A DNA stretch of 32,352 nucleotides from Bacteroidaceae bacterium (lineage in GTDB: Bacteria; Bacteroidota; Bacteroidia; Bacteroidales; Bacteroidaceae), in contig JAFZWK010000018.1 of NCBI GenBank assembly GCA_017617335.1, positions 1 through 32,352 on the forward strand. The letters are read 5' to 3'. Positions within the stretch are counted from its first letter, which is position 1, and each line of letters begins with the position of its first letter. The position numbers and the translations under genes were made by a program. Of this stretch, positions 2 through 6,602 are shown in pieces. A model generated the notes under the pieces. The model was given only the letters and a program-made list of their open reading frames with translations. It was not told where the DNA came from and ran no database searches.

Positions 2-751
2 GGTGAGGTACGTCGTATCTATATAGGCTATTGTCGTTCACTCTTAGGCAGTTTCGAAAAGGCACATAGTACAGATGTACTGGCTGGCTATTTGCTGCAA
101 GCGATGGAGGATCTTTTCGAACTGTTTGAGATAGACGCTATGAAGGTGATACTATATCATGCAAATAAGCCTAAATTTACGGACATTATCACTAGAGCAC
201 TTATCATGTATGAGAAAAAACTTCAGGCTCGACAGAAAAAAGCAAAAGATCGTGCCTTTGAACAATATACATGGGAAGTACCAGCAGAGCGCTTATACAA
301 GGAAAGCACTCATAATGTTATACCCAAAGTGGAAGACCATGCATTATTGCCCTTTATGGAGTTGAAGACAGCCTCGGCTCCTGAACGTCGGTTCTCAGAC
401 TACCTTGAAGCAAACAAAGCATATATCGACTGGTGGTATAAGAATGGCGACGAAGGCAAGCAGCATTACAGCATCCCGTACATTAATTCCAGAGGCGAGA
501 AATCTTTGTTCTACGTGGACTTTGTGGTAAGGATGAAGAGCGGACAAGTTTTTTTGTTTGACACCAAAACAGAGAATAGCGACCCAGAAGCTCCTTCCAA
601 GCATAATGCTTTGATAGATTATATGAAAGACAGTAAATTGCAGGGAGGCATAATCGTGGAAAATAACGACGTGTGGCACTATTCACGCTTCCACATAGAT
701 AACACAACAGATGTTCGAGGCTGGGAAACATTCTTCCCAGACAAAGCATGA
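2..751 (+). CDS. Type III restriction-like helicase/nuclease, C-terminal part (5' truncated)
   Basis: The reading frame is open from base 2 with no credible start, so the gene begins before the window and only its last 249 residues are visible. They resemble the C-terminal endonuclease region of type III restriction (Res) / DEAD-box helicase proteins: an ERRFSDYLE stretch, then DWWYKNGD and YSIPY, then a PD-(D/E)xK-like core with an aspartate in FYVDFVV (visible residue about 173) and DTK at about 187-189. The family cleaves DNA under control of an ATP-dependent translocase; the motor domain would lie upstream. It is followed 23 bp later by a small acidic gene and then by DndD-like and HerA-like genes, so it is probably the effector nuclease of that defence locus. 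The family call rests on pattern recognition of the C-terminus only. Confidence 0.72.
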   Translation, partial: GEVRRIYIGYCRSLLGSFEKAHSTDVLAGYLLQAMEDLFELFEIDAMKVILYHANKPKFTDIITRALIMYEKKLQARQKKAKDRAFEQYTWEVPAERLYKESTHNVIPKVEDHALLPFMELKTASAPERRFSDYLEANKAYIDWWYKNGDEGKQHYSIPYINSRGEKSLFYVDFVVRMKSGQVFLFDTKTENSDPEAPSKHNALIDYMKDSKLQGGIIVENNDVWHYSRFHIDNTTDVRGWETFFPDKA

Positions 752-774
752 TTCTAACTTAAATACATCATATT

Positions 775-987
775 ATGGCAAGAGGATTAGACCGTGTTTT
801 TCTCCACTATGGAGTAAGACAAGAAGACATGGAAATTATTGAGCAGTCATGTCGCGACTGCGACATTGACCCAGAATGGCTGAAAGAGCATGTATTGATG
901 CCGTGTAACAAAGAGCGCGAAGCCATTGAGGACGAACGCAAGTTGAACAAGATTTTGAATAGAGCGCTTAATGCCTTACCATCATGA
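775..987 (+). CDS. Small acidic protein associated with the defence locus
   Basis: This encodes a 70-aa soluble, acidic, mostly helical protein with three cysteines (CRDC and PCNK), no signal peptide and no membrane segment. It lies between the helicase/nuclease (23 bp upstream) and the DndD-like ATPase, whose ATG overlaps its stop codon (ATGA at 984-987), so the two are likely translationally coupled. Similar short genes accompany some DNA-modification-type defence loci, but no biochemical function can be assigned from the sequence. The start is the only ATG at the head of the frame. Its leader (AAATACAT followed by a T/A-rich stretch and ATGG) resembles the leader of the gene at 5430. Adaptor or regulator of the neighbouring ATPases is inference. 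Confidence 0.65.
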   Translation: MARGLDRVFLHYGVRQEDMEIIEQSCRDCDIDPEWLKEHVLMPCNKEREAIEDERKLNKILNRALNALPS

Positions 988-2999
988 AGATTAGCAGAAT
1001 TTACGCAGAAAACTATAAGACCTACCGTCATCTTGACCTTAATCTAGAGGTAGATCCTGACAGGCCAATTATACTTATTGGTGGAGGAAACGGTTGTGGT
1101 AAGACTACTCTTTTTGATGCAATCTACCATGCTCTCTACGGTCTGACAATAAAAACGCCAAAACATTTCGAAGAGTTATTTAATGCTGGCGTTATGCTTG
1201 AACCTGGTTTTGCAGGTGGCGACATCATCCTTCAGGTCGATTTCTCAGGAATGGTTCTTGGACGCGAACAACAGTATAACCTAAAACGCACATATCGAGT
1301 TGTTAACGATCATGTTGTAGAAAGTGTGCAGTTGAAAATGGGTGGAAACACCTTTACTTATGGCTCTGCCCAACCTGCTTCACAAAGAGCACAAAATGAA
1401 GAAGTAGTACGCAAGATTATTACTGCAAATCTTCCGCCAGAATTAAGCACCTACTTTTTGTTTGATGCGATGAAGACAAGCGACCTATTGAAAGAAGAAA
1501 AGATAAATGCGCTTATTGAGAAGAACATCAATTCTGTGATGGGCTTCAATAAATATATTCAGTTGAGACATAGCGCGTCTTCTTTGCTTGAATCAAAGAA
1601 AGCAGAACGTTTGGAAAATGAGAACACACGTAAAGAGTATGAGCGATTGGTGAAGGAACGCAAGACTAAACAAGACGAAAAAGAACGCTGCAACACTGAA
1701 TATGCTCAGAAATTGGCTTACGCAAATGAAAATAAAGAACAATATGAACAGGTTAAACGGGGGCGTAATGCAGATGATATTACACGCGACAAGATGCATC
1801 AAATAGAAGAATCTTTAAGATCATACGTTCGGCAAGAAAGGGATTATAGAAAAGAAGCCAATGACATTTGTTGTGACATAGAAACAACTGTCATATATCC
1901 TAAATTGGCAGATGTAATTCGAACAGAGATAGAAGTGGTTTTACACGAGAAACAACGTGCCTCTCAAGCTCGTGACAATCAACTCTCAGAAGAACAAATC
2001 AAAGATTTGACGACAAAGATTGTTCATTATATTGAAAATCAGGAAGGGAAGCCGGAAGGGACATTCGACATTACCACCATAGTCAAAAAGATAATAGAAA
2101 ACCAACAAAACGGGGAAGTTGAAGATGAATATTCCTTCTTGACAGAAAGTGATGTTAAAGTTCTGGAATCTCTGGTAAATTCTTCTTATGTCAATCCGTT
2201 TGTTTCATTGGATGAAAAACGAGAGAGATTAAATAATGAACGAACAGAACTTCCACGTCGCAGGCAACAGCTTGATGACTATCGTCGAGCTATTGGAGGT
2301 CATGATTATACAATCATCGAGCTATATGAGACAAACAACCAACGAATTGATGTACTGAAGAACAATATGGCACAACTTGACAGAGAAATAAAGGAACTTG
2401 GAGATAAGATAGCCAAATACGACTATGACATTCCTCAAGTGCCAGATCCCAAATATGATATGTTGTGCAAGTTGCCAGATTTCTTCAAAGACCTTTCCAA
2501 AAAACTACTGCGTGCGAAGAAATCAAATATTGAGCGCATGATGTGCGAAGAATTGAACAAGAATCTTGTAGTATATGCAGGAGTGATTGGTAGAGTGGAA
2601 TTGTCTGGCGAAAATAGCGAAGAAATCTCTTTCAAATTCTTCCACAAGAATGGTAATGAGATTTCAATAAACCAACTTAATGCTGGTGCGAAGCAAACTG
2701 TCATGCAAGTTCTGCTCAAGGTTCTCTATAAACTCGGAGATTACGAACCACCAGTAATGATTGATACAGTTATGGGCGTGCTTGATAAAGCAAGCCGAGA
2801 AGTTATCCTTGAACATTACTTCCCAGACTTAGCTCATCAGACAATACTCCTTTCAACAGATACAGAAATCACAACAGAACATGATTTCCAAAAGATTGAA
2901 GCATACGTCTCTCGCACCTATACACTACATAGAGACAAAGAAGCTCAATGTACAAATATAAGCGAAGATTATTTTGGACTTAAAACGAACAAACAATGA
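984..2999 (+). CDS. DndD-like SMC/Rad50-type ATPase
   Basis: This encodes 671 residues with an ABC-type head split by a long charged coiled coil. The Walker A is GGGNGCGKTT at residues 33-42. The central region, roughly 180-510, is rich in E/K/R/Q as expected for coiled coil. The C-terminal half-site has a signature-like LNAGAKQ at 565-571 and a Walker B of the form VMIDTVMGVLD near residue 594. An ABC signature of this kind followed by IDTxxGxLD is typical of DndD, the ATPase of DNA phosphorothioation systems, and of related defence SMC proteins. Here the usual E of the LSxGE-type signature is A. The gene overlaps its upstream and downstream neighbours by ATGA, so it is part of one transcript. 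DndD-like is well supported; an actual role in phosphorothioation is not shown, because DndA, DndB and DndC are not visible. Confidence 0.8.
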   Translation: MKISRIYAENYKTYRHLDLNLEVDPDRPIILIGGGNGCGKTTLFDAIYHALYGLTIKTPKHFEELFNAGVMLEPGFAGGDIILQVDFSGMVLGREQQYNLKRTYRVVNDHVVESVQLKMGGNTFTYGSAQPASQRAQNEEVVRKIITANLPPELSTYFLFDAMKTSDLLKEEKINALIEKNINSVMGFNKYIQLRHSASSLLESKKAERLENENTRKEYERLVKERKTKQDEKERCNTEYAQKLAYANENKEQYEQVKRGRNADDITRDKMHQIEESLRSYVRQERDYRKEANDICCDIETTVIYPKLADVIRTEIEVVLHEKQRASQARDNQLSEEQIKDLTTKIVHYIENQEGKPEGTFDITTIVKKIIENQQNGEVEDEYSFLTESDVKVLESLVNSSYVNPFVSLDEKRERLNNERTELPRRRQQLDDYRRAIGGHDYTIIELYETNNQRIDVLKNNMAQLDREIKELGDKIAKYDYDIPQVPDPKYDMLCKLPDFFKDLSKKLLRAKKSNIERMMCEELNKNLVVYAGVIGRVELSGENSEEISFKFFHKNGNEISINQLNAGAKQTVMQVLLKVLYKLGDYEPPVMIDTVMGVLDKASREVILEHYFPDLAHQTILLSTDTEITTEHDFQKIEAYVSRTYTLHRDKEAQCTNISEDYFGLKTNKQ

Positions 3000-4597
3000 G
3001 CAACATACAATCTCTAACCATCAATAAAGCGACTGCTATTGAAGGTATGCACGTCCGTATTCAAGATGTTAAGTCCGCTTTAGAACAACGCATCAACCTC
3101 AACGAATACTCTGAGAACGTGCAAACAGTCGTACTAAACTATAGTGTTGTATTGCGTATCTGTCTTCTTGCTGGTCTTAGTGATAAATCACGCCGAAGCG
3201 TAGAAGACGTGGAAAGTTTTAATTTAAAAGTTGATAATACTCCATACGCAACAACATTCTTTACAAAAGCCAATGTCGGCAATCTTTTTGCTGTTCTAAT
3301 CAAGTTAAGATATCATGATGTTGAAGCGAATTGGCAAGAAGGTCGATGGATAAGTAAAGTAGTAGGAAGAGAAATCTTACGAGGAAGAGAGATTCTACTG
3401 AAAGAAGGAGGAATTGAAGCTTGGCTCCGTTTTGTTCCACAGAAGGGAGGAAGAACGGCAAACGACATTCCAGTTTTAGACCTACCCATTGGAGAGTATG
3501 AGAACGGAATGAATGCAAGCCTCGATATCAATAGCCGAGAAGTTGCAAACACTCAGATTCTTGTTGCCGGAACAACAGGTTCTGGCAAGAGCAATCTTCT
3601 GGCCGTTCTGATTCATGAAATTCGTTCTGCTTCGACAGATACTCACTATCCTGTTAATTTCCTTTTATTTGACTATAAGGGAGAGTTCTCTGACCCACAA
3701 CATGAATTATGGTTGAGTCTTTTTAATACAGACCGAACCGCTGTTCTTAATCCAATAGAACGTCCTTTACCTTTTACACCATTTAAAGACTTTACAGGAA
3801 AGCCTATCAACGAAGTTAATCTCTATGCTACAGAGCTTTCTTCGGCACTTAGCGCAATAAGTCGCACATCTATTAGTGCAAATATGGACAATCGTCTAAG
3901 TAGTGCTATAGTTAATGCATACAAGGCAAAAAATCTTCGTCCTGTCACTTTCCAAGAGATTTTAGACAATTATATAGAATTGCTTCCTGAAAAGCAACAG
4001 GATAAAGCAGACAGTATAGTTTCTGTCTTAAATCAATTGGTTAACAACCATATCTTTGCAGAAGAAGATAACATAGATTTATTAAACGGCTCTTATATCA
4101 TCAATCTTGGAAGATTCCCAAAAGATGGGCCAATGGCTAAAGCGATAGTGTATTTTGTGGTATCAAAGTTGAATAATATATATGAATTACTACCACCACA
4201 AACCTCTAACAAAGAACGTGTAGAAATTCGTCACTTTACAATAATTGATGAGGCTCATTATATGCTTGACTTTGATAATCGACCTTTGCGTGAATTGATT
4301 GCCGTTGGTCGAAATAAAGGAATGAGTATCATCCTTGCTACACAAAATATGGAAAGCTTCAAGAGCAAGTATTTTGATTTCTATGCTAACGCTCAATATC
4401 CTCTTATCATGCGACAGCAGCAACAAAACGACAGCGTGATAAAGGATTTGTTTGGCGTTTCTGGTGCCGCATTACAAGAAATTAAACAAGCTATCGCCGG
4501 ATTACAGAAAGGAGAACTTATTACGCGTGATGCCGCCAACATGGCTCTTGGTATAGGCAAACAATGGCAGAAGATAAAAGTAACACATCTTATTTAA
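2996..4597 (+). CDS. HerA-type ATPase with DndE-like N-terminal domain
   Basis: This encodes 533 residues. Residues about 190-530 form a HerA/FtsK-like ATPase: Walker A GTTGSGKS at 192-199, Walker B LLFDYKGE around 223-230, a second acidic motif IIDEAH at 416-421, and a sensor-like LATQN just after it. HerA enzymes are hexameric DNA pumps that work with nucleases. The N-terminal about 135 residues match the pattern of DndE, the small DNA-binding protein of phosphorothioation loci: a hydrophobic YSVVLRICLLAGL helix where DndE has its NxLCRWA-type helix, NVGNLFAVLIKLRYHD in place of the DndE segment ending ALLKQR, then a basic ILRGREILL. A DndE-HerA fusion directly after a DndD-like gene (ATGA overlap at 2996-2999) makes chance resemblance less likely. 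The ATPase call is strong; the DndE call is moderate. Confidence 0.82.
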   Translation: MSNIQSLTINKATAIEGMHVRIQDVKSALEQRINLNEYSENVQTVVLNYSVVLRICLLAGLSDKSRRSVEDVESFNLKVDNTPYATTFFTKANVGNLFAVLIKLRYHDVEANWQEGRWISKVVGREILRGREILLKEGGIEAWLRFVPQKGGRTANDIPVLDLPIGEYENGMNASLDINSREVANTQILVAGTTGSGKSNLLAVLIHEIRSASTDTHYPVNFLLFDYKGEFSDPQHELWLSLFNTDRTAVLNPIERPLPFTPFKDFTGKPINEVNLYATELSSALSAISRTSISANMDNRLSSAIVNAYKAKNLRPVTFQEILDNYIELLPEKQQDKADSIVSVLNQLVNNHIFAEEDNIDLLNGSYIINLGRFPKDGPMAKAIVYFVVSKLNNIYELLPPQTSNKERVEIRHFTIIDEAHYMLDFDNRPLRELIAVGRNKGMSIILATQNMESFKSKYFDFYANAQYPLIMRQQQQNDSVIKDLFGVSGAALQEIKQAIAGLQKGELITRDAANMALGIGKQWQKIKVTHLI

Positions 4598-4608: not shown

Positions 4609-5403
4609 ATGGATATCAAAGATTTGGAAGATGCAAACGAGGCAATTGCCATGCTGAAGGAATTAGATTTACCTATAAGTGTTGAGCAATTAGGGAAACG
4701 ACAGATACTTGAAACCAAGTATCTTGATGAGGTATTGCTCCCCCAAATACAATCTTATATCCAATCTCTTGTTGGACAATTACATAAGCCATTCTCCCTT
4801 GTTGTTGACTATGAATATGGAATGCCTGTTCTAGTCAGGATAGCTCAAAAAACAAAGCTGAAAGATGATGTAAACCTTAGCAAGCCTAAAATAGGCACAA
4901 CTCGAAGCGGAGTTAGTAATGTGTACTCTTCTGGTCGAATACTTGATGAATGGAAGAGATTCATAGAATCTTTGCCAGATAAAAATCCTATTTATAAGTA
5001 TACGTTCACCCAGTCTTATCATTCGTTGTCTAAATTATTACGTGTAATGCAATCTGGGGAAATGATGAAGTACACGTCTTCATTATTTAAGATACTGAAG
5101 CTTCCTGCGACTGGAAAATTATCTCCAACAAAATTCATGGAAATGTTAGAACCGGAACAATTTGTTCAAGAAAAGACAAAAGATGGTACTATATCAAGAG
5201 TTGTCCTTTGGTCACAGACACAAAAAGTAGGGAATAAATATGATGGCACGCGTATTAAAGTTTTTAAAGAAGATGGAATAACTCCAGTAATGGTGGATAA
5301 AGTCAGGAAAATAAAAGAAGGGCAATGGACATTAAAGAGATTCTGCGAATTGATGGCTCAAAAAGAATATTTTGCCAATCTGCATTTAAATAAACGGAAC
5401 TAA
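4609..5403 (+). CDS. Unrecognised defence-locus protein with shared N-terminal module (paralogue A)
   Basis: I do not recognise a named family. The first 70 or so residues (MDIKDLEDANEAIAMLKELD, then LPISVEQL and an acidic helical stretch ending in FSLVVDY) closely match the start of the next gene at 5430 and of the decayed copy at 6058, so this is a repeated module. The remaining about 180 residues are unlike the paralogue: basic, mixed alpha/beta, with no evident catalytic motif, signal peptide or membrane segment. I chose the ATG at 4609 (264 aa) because the match to the paralogues begins there and an AGAGG lies just upstream. An in-frame ATG at 4564 would add 15 residues inside the HerA gene. 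It lies 11 bp after HerA and is probably co-transcribed with it. Confidence 0.6.
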   Translation: MDIKDLEDANEAIAMLKELDLPISVEQLGKRQILETKYLDEVLLPQIQSYIQSLVGQLHKPFSLVVDYEYGMPVLVRIAQKTKLKDDVNLSKPKIGTTRSGVSNVYSSGRILDEWKRFIESLPDKNPIYKYTFTQSYHSLSKLLRVMQSGEMMKYTSSLFKILKLPATGKLSPTKFMEMLEPEQFVQEKTKDGTISRVVLWSQTQKVGNKYDGTRIKVFKEDGITPVMVDKVRKIKEGQWTLKRFCELMAQKEYFANLHLNKRN

Positions 5404-5429: not shown

Positions 5430-6035
5430 ATGGATAAACTTGATAAAACATACGAGGCAATAGGTATGTTAGAAACTCTGGGTTTGCCAGTCAGCATAGA
5501 ACAGTTGAATGTAGTTGCTCAGATGGAGAAGGATTATCTTCAAGATGAGATTATTCCATTGATTAAGCAGGAACTGGAACCTATGGTTGAGAAGATGAGG
5601 AACCAGTTTAATATGAAGGTCACTTATTCTAAGGAAAACGGTTTGAATATTCAGTTATATGAACCTACTATTCAAAGTAGAAGTATGTTTCCCACAGTAG
5701 AAGAAAGAGGCTATAGAAAGAAGAAGTTCATTATTCGAGTAATATTTCCCGATAACCATGTTTCATGCCAGAAGATTGTATCAAATACGTTCGCTGATGT
5801 TGTTAAATATGCTGGTGCAAAGAATGTAGAGAGACTGGGCATCATGCTTCTTGGAAAAAATATAATATCGTCTTCTCTAATGGAAAACGAAAGATATGCA
5901 GCAGGTCAGCAGCAGATAGAACCAGGTATTTATTTATCTACATATTGTGATACAGATAAAAAACTGGAAATAATAAAGACAATTAATCGTGAATTGAATT
6001 TGAATATTGTTATTGAAAAAGTTCTGTTAGAATAG
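5430..6035 (+). CDS. Unrecognised defence-locus protein with shared N-terminal module (paralogue B)
   Basis: This encodes 201 residues with no firm family. Residues 1-70 share the module of the preceding gene (YEAIGMLETLGLPVSIEQL, then DYLQDEIIPLIKQ). The C-terminal about 100 residues (from KKKFIIRVIFPDNH, through NTFADVVKYAGAKNVERLGI, to GIYLSTYCDTDKKLEIIKTI) look like a compact alpha/beta domain that I associate from memory with proteins near restriction systems; this is not proven here. It has no membrane segment or signal peptide. It follows the 4609 gene after 26 bp on the same strand, and its leader resembles that of the 775 gene. Module duplication with exchange of the C-terminal domain is the simplest explanation for the pair. 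Confidence 0.6.
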   Translation: MDKLDKTYEAIGMLETLGLPVSIEQLNVVAQMEKDYLQDEIIPLIKQELEPMVEKMRNQFNMKVTYSKENGLNIQLYEPTIQSRSMFPTVEERGYRKKKFIIRVIFPDNHVSCQKIVSNTFADVVKYAGAKNVERLGIMLLGKNIISSSLMENERYAAGQQQIEPGIYLSTYCDTDKKLEIIKTINRELNLNIVIEKVLLE

Positions 6036-6057: not shown

Positions 6058-6204
6058 ATGAACAAATTGGATGAGGCCTACGAGAATGCTGAAATGTTGA
6101 AAGCATTGGATTTGCCTATCAGCAAAGACTAGTTAGAGAACATTGAACGTTTGGAGAAAGAAAATGGGAAAGAGCATTTTGAGAATAAGGAGGACAGCGT
6201 ATGA
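6058..6204 (+). pseudogene. Decayed third copy of the shared N-terminal module, interrupted by TAG
   Basis: From ATG at 6058 the frame reads MNKLDEAYENAEMLKALD, then LPISKD, then a TAG stop at 6130-6132. Beyond the stop the same frame continues as LENIERLEKENGKEHFENK to a TGA at 6202-6204. The first part matches the heads of the two preceding genes, and the TAG falls where both have glutamine in the SVEQL/SIEQL segment, so a single CAG-to-TAG change would explain it. The C-terminal domain is absent. The final stop overlaps the ATG of the next gene (ATGA), as if the copy had once been translated and coupled to it. Alternatives are a functional 24-residue leader peptide or stop-codon readthrough. 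Confidence 0.6.
6187..6193 (+). promoter_or_regulatory. Strong Shine-Dalgarno AAGGAGG
   Basis: A full AAGGAGG lies 7 bases before the ATG at 6201. Most genes in this window lack such a site, as is usual in Bacteroidetes, so this one stands out. It supports the start at 6201 and independent initiation there despite the TAG-broken reading frame upstream. Confidence 0.6.
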
Positions 6205-6602
6205 AGATTAAAGAGATATGGTTTGATGCTGATTATATCTACGGCAGAGACGAAGAAGGACATGAATACAAGCAATCGTTGCTGTGGTATCCACGACTGC
6301 TTCATGCTAATGATGAAGAACGCATGAAATATACGTTTAGCCTAAGCGGTATTCATTGGAGAAATTTGGATGAGGATGTCAGCTTTGAGAGTTTTGAATA
6401 TGAGGATGCAGAGCCGAGTGCCCTGCAGCGTTTCTTCTTCACCCATAAGGAAATCAATGTCGCTGAGTTTGCACGGCGAATGGGCATGAACCCCACGCTG
6501 CTTCGAAACTATATAAATGGATTCAAGAAGCCGTCAAAAGAGCGTGAGCAGGAAATTCTTGACCATATTCATAAATTAGGGGAAGAATTAGTTGCTGCAT
6601 AA
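6201..6602 (+). CDS. DUF2442 domain protein with C-terminal helix-turn-helix
   Basis: This encodes 133 residues. The N-terminal about 75 have the DUF2442 pattern: a short beta-rich start, WYPRLLHAN, then FSLSGIHWRNLDEDVSFESF. The C-terminal half contains a helix-turn-helix-like segment (NVAEFARRMGMNPTLLRNYI, then NGFKKPSKEREQEILDHI) typical of small XRE-type DNA-binding proteins. DUF2442 proteins often occur beside a DUF4160 partner in toxin-antitoxin-like pairs, but no such partner is visible here. Its place at the end of the defence locus, after a strong ribosome-binding site, suggests a regulator of the locus or an independent small operon member. The DUF2442 call is good; the function is inferred. 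Confidence 0.72.
   Translation: MKIKEIWFDADYIYGRDEEGHEYKQSLLWYPRLLHANDEERMKYTFSLSGIHWRNLDEDVSFESFEYEDAEPSALQRFFFTHKEINVAEFARRMGMNPTLLRNYINGFKKPSKEREQEILDHIHKLGEELVAA

Follow-up and report, generated by a model that had tools for sequence, protein, structure and literature searches.

The window, that is, the whole stretch of 32,352 nucleotides that was analysed, is best read from its sequence as opening with the 3' part of a defence cassette of the order Mod-Res-SP-DndD-DndE/HerA, in which a type III modification (Mod) and restriction (Res) pair would be followed by a small protein (SP), a DndD-like ATPase and a HerA-type ATPase. The window starts at a contig end, base 1 being the terminal base of C59 in a genome (G000) of 2.37 Mb and 62% completeness, and only the last third of Res is present because the contig ends inside this gene. 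Four tightly packed genes with ATGA overlaps at 984-987 (genes 2 and 3) and 2996-2999 (genes 3 and 4) had been described in the initial annotation, and both the genes and the overlaps were borne out at these coordinates. The features are listed below.

2-751, + strand: gene 1, C-terminal third of Res (249 aa, reading frame open at the 5' end)
374-571, + strand: putative nuclease residues of gene 1 (E in SAPERRF, 374-394; D in FYVDF, 509-523; DTK in FDTKT, 557-571)
775-987, + strand: gene 2, SP, conserved small protein (70 aa)
984-2999, + strand: gene 3, DndD-like SMC/ABC ATPase (671 aa)
1080-1106, 2676-2696 and 2754-2777, + strand: Walker A, signature-like motif and Walker B of gene 3, located in the sequence
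2996-4597, + strand: gene 4, HerA/FtsK-type ATPase (533 aa), DndE-like at its N-terminus
2996-3460, + strand: N-terminal part of gene 4 (approximately 155 aa), the DndE-like region, with a weak hhalign match in register
3569-3592, 4238-4258 and 4331-4351, + strand: Walker A, Walker B and ATQN motif of gene 4, located in the sequence
4609-5403, + strand: accessory gene T (start at 4609), with a domain at its N-terminus that U has as well; no Pfam match
5430-6035, + strand: accessory gene U; no Pfam match

The gene order lies beyond chance, because it recurs in 23 relatives. Nineteen of these cassette loci came from GTDB contigs scanned with gene 3, three from a set of 150 relatives and one from a faecal contig; 22 were found by a DndD query and the remaining one by DndD in a phage collection, and the counts are biased in this respect. 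Res, SP and the DndD-like gene follow one another at 23/23 loci, a HerA-type gene comes after the DndD-like gene at all 21 loci reaching that far (truncated in L012, where the contig stops), and a type III Mod lies upstream of Res at all 20 loci extending far enough in that direction. The carriers belong to Bacteroidota and Ignavibacteriota. The conserved order that the initial annotation had proposed to look for across Bacteroidetes was seen at every locus, as far as each one reaches. A modification enzyme had also been suspected upstream, and the relatives do have one in the type III Mod, the window's own contig ending inside Res. The independent cases are fewer than 23, since some loci almost duplicate one another: the Res proteins of L013 and L022 are 96-97% identical to that of L015, and L016 and L024 have nearly identical DndD-like proteins. 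Split reading frames occur in L013, L022, L023 and L026, the pieces of which were compared separately; the cassette of L026 (Flavobacterium davisii) looks decayed, with two reading frames in place of one for both Res and the DndD-like gene. Excluded from the counts were L009 and L010, whose match is limited to approximately the first 50 ATPase residues, L003-L005, which are sub-stretches of L049-L051, L043-L046 and L070-L072 (other DndD groups), L066-L069 (PbeC/CxC type) and the orphans L047 and L048.

Extra genes stand between Mod and Res at six loci (L017, L024, L025, L026, L028 and L050) and between Res and SP at five (L016, L018, L020, L023 and L051), so that 11/23 loci have an insert in one of these gaps; L023 has two further unscanned reading frames between Mod and Res. 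As judged by Pfam, the inserted genes encode DUF1016/YhcG (L017, L023), Abi_2 (L025, L051) and RhuM (L018, L020, L050) proteins, the inserts of L016 are an SF1 helicase, a PIN protein, a protein without a Pfam match and an AAA protein, and those of L024, L026 and L028 were judged by their equal length. No foreign gene was found inside SP-DndD-HerA at the 21 loci reaching the HerA gene, where the additional reading frames listed overlap SP or, in L022, the DndD gene, which is split there. The SP-DndD-HerA cassette family is rare. Gene 3 is matched over its full length at 41% identity or more in 4 of 150 relatives, the window's genome included, and among 395 genomes sampled from the phylum only the window and two orphans were recovered. 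An IMG/VR scan gave 20 pattern matches and no relative, plasmids searched with gene 4 gave no match at 1e-20, and the phage collection searched with gene 3 gave two records, one full-length (L074, an unverified faecal contig) and one partial.

Gene 1 aligns at 71% identity with the L015 Res (783 aa) over residues 531-781 of the latter, and it is the sole match to that protein in the window's genome. The full-length Res proteins of the relatives combine SF2 helicase motifs with a C-terminal PD-(D/E)xK nuclease; that of L015 matches Pfam ResIII (E 1.8e-14) and PADLOC REase_III (64 bits). A PDB sequence search with Res gave no match. Gene 1 had been called the C-terminus of a PD-(D/E)xK-type helicase, and the nuclease assignment stands, since residues E128, D173, D187 and K189 (E, D, DxK) were located in the window and are invariant in all 14 aligned Res sequences; the helicase part is seen in the relatives only. 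The two-gene loci L083 and L084 show the same E-D-DxK pattern in their Res. The missing half of Res was not found elsewhere in the window's assembly (62% complete), nor was a Mod, the empty answer for Mod being uninformative by itself. The Mod of L015 matches Pfam N6_N4_Mtase, PADLOC MTase_III and the type III Mods 7dsu, 6k0w and 4zcf in the PDB. The consensus of the Mods of 13 relatives has a DPPYNTG-type motif and, after a long variable stretch, an LDFFAGSGT-type motif, which we take to be the DPPY-type and FxGxG-type motifs, in the order of the beta class; the relatives' Mod is a beta-class enzyme that probably methylates adenine at N6.

The assignment of gene 3 as an SMC-like ATPase of DndD type was upheld by PADLOC, which scores it at 230 bits as DndD and at 196 bits as PbeC, and it falls below the cut-off of the NCBIfam DndD model TIGR03185 (197 against 245.85 bits). 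By these scores, gene 3 is homologous to DndD and is not an equivalog by TIGR03185. No C-x-C or C-x-x-C motif was found in the ATPase coiled coil of 16/16 cassette proteins aligned; for comparison, CxC-type hooks read CIC in L068 and L069 and CPIC in L066. In a tree of 28 ATPases, whose long branches advise caution on the deeper joins, the cassette proteins fall into a group of 18 supported at 100/100, apart from DndD and CxC proteins. Lacking the CxC hook and lying in a clade of its own, gene 3 was ruled out as a PbeC. The same group includes the orphans L047 (6914-8980) and L048 (6092-8251), DndD-like genes whose surroundings, as far as covered, hold no SP, HerA, Mod or Res.

In 23/23 cassettes the DndD-like gene is immediately preceded by a homologue of SP, and SP is related to the small protein of the DndD-DndE/HerA loci L045 and L046 (hhalign E 1.1e-5 in that single comparison). 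At these two loci (L045, 4688-10522; L046, 3750-9798) a protein of 666 or 734 aa is followed by SP, DndD and DndE-HerA. This protein has a sigma70-region-4-like match and, in L046, also RNAP alpha-CTD-like and HA matches, and none for a nuclease by Pfam; a dndC search of the two genomes found none in either.

Gene 4 had been described as a DndE-HerA fusion. Its HerA part is well founded, as it matches the HerA central domain (Pfam PF01935), the C-terminal part of PADLOC DndH (88.7 bits, model positions 1357-1692 of 1715) and, over profile positions 158-509, DndE-HerA fusions (hhalign E 1.1e-30). Sequence support for the DndE half is marginal. The N-terminal 155 aa or so, where DndE-HerA fusions have a DndE of two RHH units, align weakly, in register, with seven DndE proteins (hhalign E 0.011; 1/300 column shuffles was as good) and with three stand-alone DndE (E 0.054). 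An hmmsearch of this region against DndE gave nothing significant, no family model of Pfam, PADLOC or NCBIfam (TIGR03184 included) calls it DndE, the alignment of full-length gene 4 with DndE-HerA fusions covers the HerA part only, and a PDB sequence search with the N-terminus gave two weak unrelated matches only. The in-register match, weak as it is, and the corresponding location in a polypeptide of the same type nevertheless suggest that this region is probably a divergent DndE.

Downstream of gene 4, T and U share an N-terminal domain and differ in their C-termini. By blastp, the N-terminal part of T matches genes that immediately follow HerA in L011, L013, L015 and L022, and U is 65% identical to the gene after HerA in L049 and 31-36% identical to genes of the former four loci. 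Topoisomerase C-terminal repeats are present in the homologues from L013 and L015, and the U domain occurs in 3/198 genomes of the order, one of them that of the window. Beyond T and U, positions 6201-6602 encode a small protein of the DUF2442 family, whose C-terminus weakly matches an HTH.

Co-variation of the cassette genes was measured from distance matrices of 13/23 cassettes with whole-looking genes, with 10 to 13 rows per pair; left out were the HerA protein of L012 (contig end) and SP of L017 and L020, and the Mod of L014, which was used, is short. The correlation was 0.98 for DndD and HerA, 0.87 for SP and DndD, 0.78 for Mod and Res and 0.71 for Res and DndD, values reached by 0 to 8 of 2000 permutations. 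Within SP-DndD-HerA it ranged from 0.87 to 0.98, and between this module and the Mod-Res half from 0.57 to 0.71 (0.62-0.68 with Mod, 0.57-0.71 with Res). The high values within the module and the lower ones between the halves agree with a type III enzyme to which a module was added, and they also leave room for two stacked systems.

In the Res tree (20 rows), the 13 cassettes included group with L095 in a single clade at 100/100. The cassettes used for this tree and for that of Mod were the 13 of the distance test with L025 exchanged for L074; the rows contain neither the window's partial Res nor the split Res of L096. L095 (contig C13 of genome G111) is a solo Mod-Res pair, 52% and 57% identical to the pair of L015, that lies inside the clade and has no module, and the same genome carries a full cassette (L050); Mod-Res can therefore persist without the module. 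L096 (contig C113 of G106) has a Res of 42-45% identity, split into two reading frames at the contig end. Since G106 is 96% complete and has no full DndD-like match, its DndD match covering 53 residues only, L096 is probably also without the module. Res at more than 40% identity was found at six loci in the 150 relatives (in G000, G057, G111 twice, G129 and G106:C113), of which four have the module, L095 does not, and the G106 contig ends directly after the split Res. Among more distant loci found with Res, L084 is a two-gene Mod-Res pair flanked by other genes, L083 and L099 are Mod-Res pairs whose contigs end directly after Res and whose genomes have no full DndD-like match, L097 and L098 have broken-up Mod genes, and L082 has no Mod. 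The tree needs two changes, best read with the midpoint root as one gain and one loss of the module. Our best reading of these sequences is thus that a type III system acquired an SP-DndD-DndE/HerA module and lost it at least once.

It appears reasonably probable that the cassette is a type III-derived restriction-modification system, Mod-Res-SP-DndD-DndE/HerA, whose halves act together. The roles of the single proteins follow from family membership. Mod would methylate the host's own sites as the mark of self, and DndD and the HerA-type protein would together make up an SMC-like complex that translocates DNA, loading on incoming molecules and scanning or pumping them. SP may link the module to Res, handing over unmethylated DNA, and the SF2 motor and PD-(D/E)xK domain of Res would then cut the unmarked DNA. 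The initial annotation had proposed a variant coupling Dnd-type sensing or motor proteins to a type III-like nuclease; their adjacency is observed, and we infer the joint action, the direction of the hand-off, the role of SP and the cleavage. Against coupling stand the Mod-Res pairs without the module, L095 and probably L096 (our confidence was slightly lowered because of G106), the orphans without SP, HerA, Mod or Res nearby, and correlations between the halves that are below those within them.

These pairs bear on the strongest alternative, namely that a type III restriction-modification system and a separate SP-DndD-DndE/HerA system merely stand side by side through the clustering of defence genes. 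A solo Mod-Res inside the clade (L095) and probably another beside it (L096) speak for such stacking, as do the other genes between Res and SP at five loci and the different partner that SP-DndD-DndE/HerA has in L045 and L046. However, SP-DndD-HerA of this clade occurs without Mod-Res at 0/20 loci reaching upstream, and a single joining followed by a single loss agrees with the Res tree; we regard two independent systems as unlikely.

The proposed joint action was also set against known systems. A search for dndC in 23 genomes, 21 of them with a cassette, many being incomplete assemblies (G000 at 62%), exceeded the cut-off in 1/21 cassette genomes, that of L025, on a different contig, as the match position lies past the length of the contig of L025; a second match, in G544, was far below it. 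In the positive control dndC was recovered in 5/5 genomes with a DndC-DndD locus. Genome G432 has an orphan DndD-like gene only, on C61, and a separate dnd locus on C83. By this search with its control, the window was ruled out as a phosphorothioation locus; where the initial annotation had named a DndC-like gene as one candidate to look for upstream, the relatives have a modification enzyme other than that of phosphorothioation.

Classical type III restriction-modification systems consist of two genes. With those of the EcoP15I and Mbo45V kind the cassettes share a homologous Mod and an SF2 Res with a C-terminal PD-(D/E)xK domain, but they carry three further genes (SP, DndD-like and HerA-type). 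A classical mod, which the initial annotation had named as evidence against itself if the DndD and HerA genes proved to be subunits of the same known system, is indeed present in the relatives; a named type III system with such subunits was not found. The DndC-DndD-DndE/HerA loci (L043, L044, L071 and L072) likewise have a DndD-type gene followed by DndE-type/HerA, with a homologous HerA, but in them DndC adjoins, whereas the cassettes have type III Mod-Res; TIGR03184 recognises DndE in the three of the four that were examined (L043, L044 and L071) and not in the N-terminus of gene 4. These loci are probably the HerA 'clade-3' of PMC10853773, the available part of which reports that some Dnd systems have, next to an ATPase related to DndD, HerA/FtsK domains fused to DndE. 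That fusion is already published. No type III Mod-Res paired with DndD-DndE/HerA was found in the literature searched, and reference 24 of PMC10853773 may describe one. Of DndFGH, the HerA domain of gene 4 resembles the C-terminus of DndH, but only the HerA part of DndH is matched in the window, and no DndF or DndG model is among the PADLOC matches shown for seven window proteins.

PbeABCD/CxC systems (L066 and L070) have the same order of nuclease-helicase, small protein, ABC ATPase and DndE-type gene, the small protein between nuclease and ATPase being common to both by position (SP at 23/23 cassettes). The cassette might accordingly block replication without cutting, as the available part of PMC6459918 reports for PbeABCD against phage, with adenine methylation in place of phosphorothioation. 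The helicase-small protein-ABC ATPase-DndE-type order of PbeA-B-C-D and PbeC scores of up to 196 bits agree with this. However, Res keeps its PD-(D/E)xK residues, of which PbeA has none according to the same part of PMC6459918, the ATPase has no CxC hook, and no PbeA model is among the 11 matches of the L015 Res, by which gene 1 was ruled out as a PbeA (the model scores 691 bits on the PbeA of L066); a replication block of this kind thus seems rather improbable. Contrary to PMC6459918, most PbeA carry an HKD nuclease according to the portion of PMC10853773 available, where PbeA is an HKD-SF2 protein, PbeC a CxC-type ATPase and the partners are phosphorothioation systems or cytosine methylases, which CxC systems can carry. 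In L066 a 155-aa gene without HerA fusion follows PbeC, unlike gene 4. This locus (5740-10468 on contig C40, near the contig end) belongs to the window's own genome and comprises PbeA, PbeC and the 155-aa gene; L070, in a genome of the same genus, has DndC, DndD, DndE and then PbeA, and with both at hand side by side the types can be told apart.

That SP-DndD-DndE/HerA serves modification instead, steering Mod to its sites as DndD and DndE, members of the Dnd modification complex in the available part of PMC10853773, serve DndC, is very improbable, as the module comes after Res and not Mod, its correlation with Mod (0.62-0.68) is not above that with Res (0.57-0.71), and Mod has its own long variable stretch between conserved motifs.

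Beyond the coupled type III cassette favoured here, SP-DndD-DndE/HerA may, as a tentative and rather less probable extension, be a portable DNA-scanning and loading unit that plugs into unrelated effectors, and it is with similar reserve that type III Mod-Res, the multi-HTH protein of L045 and L046 and, without SP, DndC are proposed as such effectors. If this is true, the type III enzyme would become motor-fed. If the halves cooperate, a scanning complex of Dnd type would recognise self by adenine methylation in place of phosphorothioation; the variants named in the available part of PMC10853773 are phosphorothioation and cytosine methylation. The restriction enzyme may also work without the SMC-like ATPase and HerA motor, and the two loci of G111, one with the module (L050) and one without (L095), frame what these proteins add to Res.
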